Shown: positions 30,971-34,245 of the stretch, piece after piece
Numbering within the stretch: position 1 is the first letter of the stretch
Layout of the letters: each line of letters starts with the position of its first letter
Source: Thermonema rossianum DSM 10300
GTDB lineage: Bacteria > Bacteroidota > Bacteroidia > Cytophagales > Thermonemataceae
Direction of reading: 5' to 3'
Assembly: GCF_000426825.1 (NCBI RefSeq)
Contig: NZ_AUGC01000010.1
Span: forward strand, 62,001 to 126,000
Length of the DNA: 64,000 bases
Program-made: the position numbers and the translations under genes
Notes under the pieces: generated by a model
Seen by the model: only the letters and a program-made list of their open reading frames with translations
Database searches by the model: none
Told to the model about the DNA's origin: nothing

Positions 30971-32008
30971 CTATTGAACGATGAAAGTGTTGGGTGCAAT
31001 ACCGGCCGTGAAGCTTGTAACTTCTTGTCCGTTGGCATCAAACACTTTGACACCGCCATTGCGGGTATAAACGGCTTCGCCTACATAGACATGGCCGGTT
31101 GTTTTATCGGCACCAATGCCATTGAATGCGCTGAACTCGCTCACTTCTGCAAAGGGAGCCGTGGGCACCACCGGGTTGGTGGCGTCCACTTTATAGATCT
31201 TGTTGCCACTGAAGTAGAAAATCGATTCGCCATCACTTGCAATGCGCACCGGGTAGTAGCTCATATCCACGGCAATGGTTTTTTCCACGGTGTTGGTGGC
31301 GGGGTTGAAGCGTATTAAGTAACCGCTGTTGCAAGCAACCCACAGCTTACCCTTCGCGTCTGCTTCGAAGCGTTCGGGGCCGCTCTCTACCACTATTTGC
31401 CCATCGAGTGCATCTGTGTTTGTGTTCAGTATTTCTATGGTGTTGCTGCCTGCTCCGGCAATGAACACTTTACTTTTGCTGTATGCCCAAATGCCTTGCG
31501 GGCGTACGCTCAAGGCTACTTTTTTGATGAATGCGCCGGTGGTGGCATCGTAAACAGCCACAAACGATTCGGGATTGCTGCCAAAGGCTTTGTCTATGGG
31601 GCCCCAGTTGGTAACATAAATTTTACCATTGATGACAGCCACGTCAATGGGGTTGTCCAAGCCTTCTTGAAGGGTGAGTTCCAGCTTGAGAGTGGCTGCA
31701 TTTACTACACGCACAAAGTTTTGGTTGTTGGTTACAATGTAAATGCGCTCGCCGTATTTGCGTGCCGATTGAATGATGCCGCCAACGGGTGTGTTGTTTT
31801 CTGTCTCGAATACATTGTCTTGGGCAGTGTTTTCGCCTTTTTTCAGGAAGCTTACGCTTCCGTTACCTTCGCTGAAGTTGCCTTCGTTGAACACGAGGGT
31901 ACCGTTCACATAAGCGCCGGCAGCTTCATCTTTTTTGTTACAGCCGGTGAGTTGCAGGGCAGTTATGCCCACCAATAGCCACAATAACCAACGATTGATT
32001 TGTTTCAT
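30971..32008 (-). CDS. surface beta-propeller lipoprotein, BtuG-like (YncE/DUF5074 type)
   Basis: A 345-residue lipoprotein with a signal ending in the lipobox LTGC. The residues after the lipidated cysteine read NKKDEA, a K followed by two acidic residues, which fits the lipoprotein surface-export signal known in Bacteroidota. The mature part is a seven-bladed-propeller-like YncE fold with repeated strand motifs (VRVVNAATLKLELTLQEGL, PIDVAVINGKIYVTNWG, NTIEILNTNTDALDGQIVV). It is the second gene of a btuB operon behind a cobalamin riboswitch. In Bacteroides, BtuG propeller lipoproteins in the same position capture B12 for BtuB, so this role is likely. Confidence 0.88.
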   Translation of the reverse strand: MKQINRWLLWLLVGITALQLTGCNKKDEAAGAYVNGTLVFNEGNFSEGNGSVSFLKKGENTAQDNVFETENNTPVGGIIQSARKYGERIYIVTNNQNFVRVVNAATLKLELTLQEGLDNPIDVAVINGKIYVTNWGPIDKAFGSNPESFVAVYDATTGAFIKKVALSVRPQGIWAYSKSKVFIAGAGSNTIEILNTNTDALDGQIVVESGPERFEADAKGKLWVACNSGYLIRFNPATNTVEKTIAVDMSYYPVRIASDGESIFYFSGNKIYKVDATNPVVPTAPFAEVSEFSAFNGIGADKTTGHVYVGEAVYTRNGGVKVFDANGQEVTSFTAGIAPNTFIVQ

Positions 32009-32038
32009 AGCTTCGATTGTTTGAGTTTGACGATTTAT

Positions 32039-33943
32039 TTATTTGTTTGAAAGAAAAGACCACTGCAAAGAAACTTGATATTGCCGCCCGGGTTGTGGTT
32101 GGTTGTCTATTTGTTCATAGGCCTTGTCAAGCATGTTCAGTATGCCGATTTGTAAATTGAGCTGCCCGTCGCGGATTTGCCACTGTTTGCCGGCGTGCAC
32201 ATCCATAGTCCAGAAGGGGGGCAGGCTGCGTTTGTTGTCGGTAGTGGTGTAGCGCGTGCCGGTCCATTGCCCGTTGACGATGACCAGCCATTGGCGATAG
32301 TGCTGCCATTTAAGCAAGCCGCTAAGCCTGTGTGCCGGCACATAGGGCAGCTGCTTGCCTATGCTTGCCCAGTCGGCTGCATCTACCGCTTTTTGATTGG
32401 TGGCACGTGTAAAGGTGTAATGTAGTTGTTGTGAGAAAGTGGCACGGGGCGTACTTAGTTGATGAGATAGTGATGTTTGTAGTCCCCAAGACAAGACTTC
32501 CTTCAGGTTGTCCGGCGCCCAGTACCCTTCCGGTGTGGGCTGCCATAAAATCCAGTCATTAATATGATTGCGGAAGCCTTCTATGTTCAATTGCCAGAGC
32601 TGTTGGTGGTGCCGGTGCCGGAGCTGAAAGTAAATATTGTTGTAAAAGCCCGATTCCGGTCTTATATCAGGATTACCGCCCGGCTGCCAATAGAGGGCAT
32701 TGAGCGATGGCAGTTTATAATTGAATGATGCACTTCCGCCTGTTTTTATGTCGAGCGCAGCTGTAGAAAACAGCAAGTAATCGAAGCCCAGCGAGGGTGA
32801 CAAAGGGGGGGCATAGGCATTGACCCACACTTTTCTCAGGTTAAGGGCTATATGCAGGCGGGTAGAGGCCTCCCATTGGGTAAAAACAAAGGTCTCTAAC
32901 TGCCGCCGTTCGGGCTGCCCTTCGTAGCTGTCCACATCGGTTTGTATGAGCGTGGCGGTCGCACCTGCACGGCTGCTTAGGCTTTGGTTCCAAGCTATTT
33001 CATATTGATACTGCGCCTGCCATTGATGCGTGTTGGTTTGGCTGCTTTCGTTGTATTCCAAAAAATTGCGCACAAAAGAAAGTTGAGCCAGTTGTTTGTG
33101 GTCCCGGTATTGCAACAAGGTACGAAGGTTTTTGTCTATTTGTCGTGCCCTGTTGCTGAGCAAGATACGGTCATGCTCGTGATACCAGCTGTAAAAGTTT
33201 ATTTCTTGCCCTTTCTTTATTTCGTAAAAAAACTCTTGGCGGGTGCCGAAGAAGTGGAAGGGGGCATAATCTATTGTTTGGTAGGGTTTAATCAGGCGGT
33301 TTTCAAAAATATTTTTGGCATAGCTGCCATACAATTGACTAAACCCGCTAAGTTTTGTGCCGGCCTTCCAGCCGGTTTGCAGCCGTGCACTCCATTGTTG
33401 TGTGCTGCGGTAGGCTGTCTGTATGCTCAAGGGCAAAGTGCTGTTTTGCTTGCCGGATTCTAAAAGAATAGCGCCCCCGATGGCATCACTGCCTGCCAAG
33501 GGACTGCTTCCGCCCTGTATGAGCTGCACTTGGTAGCCGCCGGCAAGGGGCAGGGTGGAAAAGTCTGCCTCGCCCAAGGTGGGGGAGTTGATATTGACTC
33601 CGTTCCAGAGCACGGCGGTGTGCCCGGCAGCTGTGCCACGCAAACTAATGCTTTGAAGCATCCCACTGCCGTAAGCTTTTATATAAGCATCGGTGTTTTG
33701 CAGTAGAATATCGCCCAGACTTTGGGCAGGTAAAAAGCCGGCAAGCAGGCTGTCTGTTGTGGTGCTTTGCAGCCCAACCCCATAACGGTTATAGGGCAGT
33801 GCGGTGATGAGTACCTCGCGCAGCTCATAAGCCTGCGTGCTGTCGGACTGTGCCGCAAGCTGCCGGGGCAAGCAACATAACTCACTTATGAAAAGGCAAC
33901 ACAACAAACGCAACATATTCCCGCTACTTTGAATGTTTGACAT
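32039..33943 (-). CDS. btuB: TonB-dependent vitamin B12 receptor, BtuB-like
   Basis: A 634-residue outer-membrane receptor. A signal peptide ends near QLAAQ. A TonB-box-like segment (ELREVLITALP) is followed by the plug domain (LGDILLQNTDAYIKAYG, SISLRGTAAGHTAVLWNGV, VQLIQGGSSPLAGSDAIGGA) and a 22-strand-type barrel ending in YQVSLQWSFLSNK. The start could be the ATG at 33943 or the one at 33916, which gives a more compact signal peptide (MLRLLCCLFISEL). Cobalamin specificity is inferred from the upstream riboswitch and the adjacent BtuG-like gene. A hairpin covers the 33943 start codon. Confidence 0.9.
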   Translation of the reverse strand: MSNIQSSGNMLRLLCCLFISELCCLPRQLAAQSDSTQAYELREVLITALPYNRYGVGLQSTTTDSLLAGFLPAQSLGDILLQNTDAYIKAYGSGMLQSISLRGTAAGHTAVLWNGVNINSPTLGEADFSTLPLAGGYQVQLIQGGSSPLAGSDAIGGAILLESGKQNSTLPLSIQTAYRSTQQWSARLQTGWKAGTKLSGFSQLYGSYAKNIFENRLIKPYQTIDYAPFHFFGTRQEFFYEIKKGQEINFYSWYHEHDRILLSNRARQIDKNLRTLLQYRDHKQLAQLSFVRNFLEYNESSQTNTHQWQAQYQYEIAWNQSLSSRAGATATLIQTDVDSYEGQPERRQLETFVFTQWEASTRLHIALNLRKVWVNAYAPPLSPSLGFDYLLFSTAALDIKTGGSASFNYKLPSLNALYWQPGGNPDIRPESGFYNNIYFQLRHRHHQQLWQLNIEGFRNHINDWILWQPTPEGYWAPDNLKEVLSWGLQTSLSHQLSTPRATFSQQLHYTFTRATNQKAVDAADWASIGKQLPYVPAHRLSGLLKWQHYRQWLVIVNGQWTGTRYTTTDNKRSLPPFWTMDVHAGKQWQIRDGQLNLQIGILNMLDKAYEQIDNQPQPGRQYQVSLQWSFLSNK

Positions 33944-33949
33944 TCAAAG
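33927..33949 (-). promoter_or_regulatory. hairpin enclosing the btuB start region
   Basis: A perfect 9-base stem, CTTTGAATG / CATTCAAAG, with loop TCAAA on the mRNA. The ATG at 33943 is in the 5' arm and the alternative ATG at 33916 lies 10 bases past the 3' arm. No T run follows, so it is not a terminator. It probably controls access of ribosomes and may be the expression platform of the riboswitch. Confidence 0.6.
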
Positions 33950-34033
33950 CCCGGGGGATTCACGAAATGAACAAAGCGCCGGATAAGCCTCTGTCATTTC
34001 AGTGCTTTTACCCCGAAAGCTCTGAAAATGCGA

Positions 34034-34208
34034 AGACAGCAGGCAGGTCTCCTGGCTTGCCTCACATGTACCGCCTTCCCACCCTACACATATAAGGGGC
34101 AGTGGCAGAGAGGGTACATGCCTTTTAAAGAGGCTCACAGTTGCGGGGACAGCTCCGGACTTGCACCGGATTCCCTTTTCAAGCGCTCATGGGCGCTACC
34201 TGCTATCT
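34034..34208 (-). promoter_or_regulatory. cobalamin riboswitch
   Basis: On the minus strand the leader carries the conserved core around AAGTCCGGAGCTGTCCCCGC, then CAACTGTGAGCC, and the B12 box AGCCAGGAGACCTGCC (34057-34042). The ends pair as P1: AGATAGCAGG (34208-34199) with CCTGCTGTCT (34043-34034). The element lies 90 bases upstream of the btuB ATG. A second hairpin follows at about 33985-34030, then the start-codon hairpin. Binding of adenosylcobalamin should reduce expression of btuB-btuG, most likely at translation. Confidence 0.95.
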
Positions 34209-34215
34209 GGCATGG

Positions 34216-34245
34216 CAAAGTTACTTGATTTTTTGATTTTGCCAA
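34216..34245 (-). promoter_or_regulatory. promoter of the btuB-btuG riboswitch leader
   Basis: Minus strand TTG (34245-34243), 19 bases, then TAACTTTG (34223-34216). Transcription would start just before the P1 stem of the riboswitch, which supports both calls. Confidence 0.65.

Follow-up and report, generated by a model that had tools for sequence, protein, structure and literature searches.

A riboswitch-linked btuB-btuG operon with a predicted role in corrinoid uptake in Thermonema rossianum, and its relatives across Bacteroidota

A stretch of 64,000 nucleotides from the genome of Thermonema rossianum DSM 10300 (contig NZ_AUGC01000010.1, positions 62,001 to 126,000; hereafter the window, in whose own numbering all coordinates are given) very probably contains a minimal BtuBG corrinoid-uptake operon. 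We recognize it here by its parts, their order, the fold and the protein families; corrinoid uptake itself is predicted. A promoter, a cobalamin riboswitch, the TonB-dependent transporter gene btuB and the propeller lipoprotein gene btuG follow each other on a 3.3-kb segment of the minus strand, and each element of this order, read from the letters alone in the original prediction, was found where it had been placed. The locus adds one member, from a free-living Cytophagales bacterium, to a known two-gene system; its useful part is the breadth of the distribution.

The gene btuG (positions 30,971-32,008, minus strand) encodes a lipoprotein of 345 residues with a seven-bladed β-propeller of the DUF5074 family (PF16819). 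The Pfam match, of 78 bits (gathering cut-off 27.2), spans residues 35-333, and btuG is the only DUF5074 gene in the genome, whose completeness of 97.5% is the basis for this and the following single-copy statements. Its N-terminus reads MKQINRWLLWLLVGITALQLTGC-NKKDEA: the lipobox LTG-Cys23 is directly followed by NKKDEA, as previously noted, and this cysteine, predicted from the sequence to be lipidated, is invariant across an alignment of 45 homologues. The top sequence matches in the PDB are BtuG3 (8p97_B, E = 1.6e-15) and BtuG2 (8bmx_D, E = 2.1e-14).

We modelled the protein with AlphaFold from an alignment with 44 relatives, reaching a predicted local distance difference test (pLDDT) of 93.4 and a predicted template modelling score of 0.88. 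In a Foldseek search with this model, places 1 to 16 are all taken by chains of BtuG1, BtuG2 or BtuG3. Comparison of the predicted fold with BtuG2 had been set beforehand as a test, and the resemblance holds at the level of the fold: VIA-align superposes the model on B12-bound BtuG2 (8bai_A) with a Z-score of 37.6 and 2.1 Å over 296 residues. BtuG chains as a group give Z-scores of 35-38, followed by an archaeal YVTN propeller at 32.0, the best match outside BtuG, and by BtuK1 at 30.8. From its DUF5074 domain, its sequence matches in the PDB, its fold and its neighbour of the BtuB2/BtuB3 type, the lipoprotein is a BtuG.

That neighbour, btuB (32,039-33,943, minus strand), ends 30 bp before btuG in the list of open reading frames (ORFs) and encodes a TonB-dependent corrinoid transporter of 634 residues, of the lid-bearing BtuB2/BtuB3 type. 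An alternative start is possible at 33,916, where a second methionine precedes a signal peptide ending in AA, followed by Q. In the PDB, phmmer matches the protein to BtuB3 chains and BtuB2 with E-values of 7e-54 to 1e-52, against about 1e-12 for the BtuB of Escherichia coli, and on TIGR01779, the profile of the E. coli type, it scores 81.7 bits, below the cut-off of 599.7. Foldseek with its model (pLDDT 88) ranks the lid-bearing type in places 1-5, with 8p98, 8p97 and 8bmx foremost. The TonB-dependent B12 transporter fold is shared with E. coli BtuB; the latter, however, has no lid, and the window BtuB matches the lid-bearing transporters of Bacteroides better. In Bacteroides thetaiotaomicron, the BtuB loop EL8 displaces B12 from BtuG, and Tyr538 of BtuB3, a position of conserved aromatic character, touches the ligand (PMC10404256). 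Its equivalent here is Trp475 (32,519-32,521, minus strand), within GYWAPDN aligned to GFYSPVN.

Upstream of btuB lies a full-length cobalamin riboswitch aptamer (RF00174, model positions 1-189; 34,025-34,218, minus strand), detected by cmscan at 122.3 bits against a gathering cut-off of 31.5 (E = 3.5e-30); it is the sole cobalamin riboswitch in the genome. It is preceded by a promoter of Bacteroidota type (34,216-34,245, minus strand), composed of TTG at -33, an N19 spacer and TAACTTTG at -7. By itself this motif is not significant, with six spaced matches in the window versus 1.3 in mononucleotide shuffles; we call the promoter because of its position and its conservation in a sibling species (L033), where TTG-N19-TAAATTTG occupies the equivalent site between diverged flanks.

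The closest known systems are BtuB2-BtuG2 and BtuB3-BtuG3 of B. thetaiotaomicron (8bmx, 8p97/8p98, 8bmy; PMC6143338, PMC10404256). The Thermonema locus shares with them riboswitch control, an adjacent BtuB of the same type, the seven-bladed propeller lipoprotein, its clamp loop NEGNF...N and an EL8 aromatic at the position of Tyr538. Unlike the three loci of B. thetaiotaomicron, it is present in a single genome copy, in a lineage outside the gut, and consists of two genes, without btuFCD, btuH or DUF4465 genes. Two other B12-uptake proteins of Bacteroides are less close: BtuK1 (PDB 9s6c), also a propeller, gives the lower structural match quoted above, and the B12-binding BtuJ, of the DUF4465 family, has a jellyroll fold (PMC13398666). 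Neither DUF4465 nor BtuK1 occurs in this operon, whereas DUF4465 genes adjoin btuB in some relatives.

BtuG was first described from gut Bacteroides and called exclusive to Bacteroidetes on the basis of 313 gut genomes (PMC6143338), and a later proposal held that lipoproteins assist the uptake of small molecules in Bacteroides generally (PMC10404256). Our literature search, with most subscription journals outside its coverage, found no report of BtuG in environmental Bacteroidota. Of 29 relatives, 26 have BtuG and 26 have riboswitches, and most loci are arranged as riboswitch-btuB-btuG. In a sample of 148 genomes of the phylum, for which part of the candidates was scored and the counts are lower bounds, at least 59 genomes encode a full-length BtuG, scoring no less than 118 bits. 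Among the riboswitches listed for this sample, one lies 0.1-4.2 kb upstream of btuG on the same strand in 44 of the 47 BtuG genomes that have a listed riboswitch.

We also scanned contigs of named, mostly environmental genomes of Cytophagales, Flavobacteriales, Saprospiraceae and Bacteroidales with a seven-member alignment. Of the loci found, 72 have 2.3 kb or more of upstream sequence, and at 68 of these btuB lies no more than 1 kb upstream of btuG. A riboswitch was found at two of eight loci scanned with Rfam (seven from Bacteroidales or unclassified Bacteroidota and one from a metagenome-assembled genome of a lake Bacteroidetes). The full riboswitch-btuB-btuG order recurs in environmental members of all four groups which, with the match in fold, supports the earlier proposal that the same gene system exists outside the gut lineage. 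Viral contigs yielded no relative.

A survey of btuB neighbourhoods across 194 genomes of the order revealed near-perfect co-occurrence of BtuG with lid-type BtuB: both are present in 134 genomes and neither in 47, while BtuB alone occurs in 2 and BtuG alone in 11 (odds ratio 286, Fisher p ~8e-32, not corrected for phylogeny). For 87 of 144 BtuBs, btuG lies within 300 bp downstream, and for 24 more within 5 kb. The wider suggestion of the original prediction, that the capture system may be a general feature of the phylum, stands with a correction: the system is widespread without being universal, several families having a riboswitch and a lone, different BtuB. In these families without BtuG the riboswitch is followed by a distant transporter of 15-19% identity to the window BtuB (L140-L146, L148, L149). 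These lone-BtuB loci often adjoin a gene whose product starts with a W(S/T)GGKDS motif.

Among environmental bacteria, the lid-assisted B12 transporter is thus common in Cytophagales and occurs in Flavobacteriales, Saprospiraceae and Bacteroidales as well. Its occurrence in such lineages makes it unlikely to be an adaptation to the gut or to stealing B12 from host proteins.

In molecular dynamics simulations of BtuG2, two loops, Asn54-Thr64 and β5A (Asp236-Pro249), grip B12 like pliers; hydrogen bonds to the corrin ring are supplied by blades 1-4, and the upper-ligand cavity is narrowed by Trp194, Trp272 and Tyr316 (PMC10404256). The first loop corresponds here to NEGNFSEGNGS, residues 41-51 (31,856-31,888, minus strand), whose NEGN is invariant in the 45 homologues. 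Tyr335 of BtuG2 is retained, and Trp272 is replaced by a tyrosine.

Other features weigh against assigning the lipoprotein the role of BtuG2. Identity to BtuG2 is only about 22%, at which single-position assignments in the alignment carry some error. The β5A clamp loop is shorter than that of BtuG2 by about 11 residues and is missing the equivalent of Tyr239; Trp194 is replaced by alanine and Tyr316 by asparagine, the latter position staying a tyrosine in 40 of 45 homologues. By simple count, the mature chain carries a net charge of about -7, compared with about -16 for residues 46-363 of BtuG2, so that long-range attraction of the ligand is possibly weaker. With one clamp loop shortened, an affinity like that of BtuG2 is not to be assumed, and judging from these residues both affinity and corrinoid preference may differ from it.

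The shortened loop, the replacements of Trp194 and Tyr316 and the lower negative charge would suit an alternative in which the BtuBG pair is kept by descent, but this BtuG no longer captures B12 tightly and serves mainly as a weakly binding lid or gate, or prefers other corrinoids. Also in its favour, the β5A stretch, counted between fixed flanks, spans 8-26 residues among homologues, against an NEGN jaw that does not change. However, blades 1-4 supply the hydrogen bonds to the corrin ring in BtuG2 (PMC10404256), and many of the positions conserved here lie in the N-terminal half; moreover, BtuB retains the displacer aromatic of EL8, expected where a tightly bound ligand needs to be dislodged. 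We regard such a loss of capture as unlikely, though deserving serious consideration. A further picture, rather doubtful, is that the BtuG pocket across Bacteroidota combines one fixed jaw (NEGNF...N) with one variable jaw (β5A) and is paired with a BtuB loop whose displacer aromatic is kept together with the lid and lost beside DUF4465; the result would be a capture-and-eject machine tuned by lineage in affinity and corrinoid preference, and this genus would then be clamp-poor and possibly faster-releasing.

The EL8 aromatic itself is present in 32 of 33 lid-type BtuBs adjoining btuG and in 18 of 20 lid-type BtuBs without btuG found alongside. It is absent from both lid-type BtuBs whose next gene is a Pfam-confirmed DUF4465, and present in two of nine BtuBs at riboswitch loci without BtuG; these nine lone BtuBs are a separate lineage (15-19% identity), and the comparison with them is confounded by ancestry. 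Within the lid lineage the losses amount to a handful, mostly among DUF4465 neighbours, and at least some of these genomes keep a btuG elsewhere. That loss of the aromatic tracks loss of BtuG in the lid lineage is thus suggestive only. The two cases beside DUF4465, both without the aromatic, are L150 (1813-4603) and L152 (4294-7827), where the gene after lid-type btuB is not btuG but one for a DUF4465 protein that carries a type IX secretion tail. Variation of the second clamp loop, along with the lidless and DUF4465-paired relatives, provides a set of proteins for probing BtuG affinity and ejection by EL8.

A second alternative is that the propeller faces the periplasm and hands B12 on there, with no capture outside the cell. 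NKKDEA fits the published export signals of lipoproteins only loosely; nevertheless, all 45 aligned homologues carry at least one acidic residue just past the cysteine, a trait of Bacteroidota export signals. BtuG2, which has MKWD, is exposed at the surface and caps BtuB (PMC6143338, PMC10404256), and we consider a periplasmic propeller improbable. Finally, an unrelated YVTN/YncE-type propeller placed after btuB by chance, with no part in B12 uptake, is scarcely credible: the superfamily is common and numerous unrelated propellers reach Z-scores of 27-30, but the scores of the BtuG chains exceed those of the archaeal YVTN propeller and BtuK1, and the co-occurrence with one type of BtuB is strong even if uncorrected for phylogeny.

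For the BtuBG operon we propose the following course of events, in which surface exposure, B12 binding, the motion of the lid and the sign of regulation are carried over by analogy from B. thetaiotaomicron. At low B12, the riboswitch would leave btuB and btuG on. BtuG, a lipid-anchored seven-bladed propeller, would sit as a lid over BtuB at the cell surface; its central pocket, with the clamp loop NEGNF...N, would catch corrinoids and then close onto the transporter. EL8 of BtuB, with Trp475, would push the corrinoid into the transporter, and TonB would drive its import. At high B12, the riboswitch would shut the operon off.

The genome has B12-dependent enzymes: it encodes several proteins with B12-binding domains, three of them above 59 bits, and also one full-length permease of the FecCD type, while CbiC was not detected in the 97.5%-complete assembly. 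This gene content is consistent with dependence on imported corrinoid, although the lack of a single biosynthetic gene is no proof of auxotrophy.

The leader RNA holds two further structures. After the aptamer, a hairpin GCUUU-CGGGGUA-AAAGC (34,004-34,020, minus strand) is also present, with covariation, at the btuB riboswitches of relatives. In their leaders (L059-L138) it stands about 25 nt past the aptamer, outside the RF00174 model, with the loop CGG(G/A)NNA. Across 27 distinct sequences, picked by loop motif and not by stem, two-sided changes occur at six of six pairs and 84.6% of cells pair; the covariation score was reached by none of 500 shuffles, though kinship among the sequences can still inflate such scores. 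No intrinsic terminator was found on the minus strand between the aptamer and btuB, making translational control more likely, and the hairpin likely belongs to a translational expression platform. A pseudoknot of its loop CGGG with the conserved CCCCG of the aptamer was considered and rejected: loop variants CGGAGGA occur beside an unchanged GUCCCCGC, and no covariation supports the pairing. The same hairpin lies downstream of riboswitches at loci without btuG (L142, L143, L147-L149).

The second structure, at 33,927-33,949 (minus strand), surrounds the first candidate start codon of btuB: a perfect inverted repeat of 9 bp, CTTTGAATG/CATTCAAAG, giving the hairpin CUUUGAAUG/CAUUCAAAG. In the sibling species L033 its arms are identical and its loop altered.

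The operon is flanked on the same strand by two genes unrelated to it, one upstream for a YjdM/PhnA-domain protein and one downstream for an S41 peptidase. Elsewhere in the order, additional genes stand between btuB and btuG. DUF4465 genes with type IX sorting tails do so in two members (L052:2671-4293, L056:9339-7957). In the Raineya family and neighbouring genomes, a gene for a cysteine-rich CWC / 4HBT thioesterase protein takes this place (L034:7223-7798, L036:6396-7165, L040:8140-7565); the assignment was checked with Pfam in L034, and L036 has two separate ORFs. Another family, f2 (G008, G028, G187, G200, G225, G237, G263, G275, G287), has two BtuGs per genome, neither adjoining a lid-type btuB; the riboswitch of G008 and of G028 has one of these btuG genes as its nearest downstream gene.

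In one further genome (L147, G134), a cobalamin riboswitch lies about 150 nt upstream of an ORF of 778 residues with the MetE-like start MLTHTLGFPRLGAQRDLKK. By its sequence, the product resembles a B12-independent methionine synthase, and the riboswitch could plausibly act as a B12-off switch for this putative enzyme.

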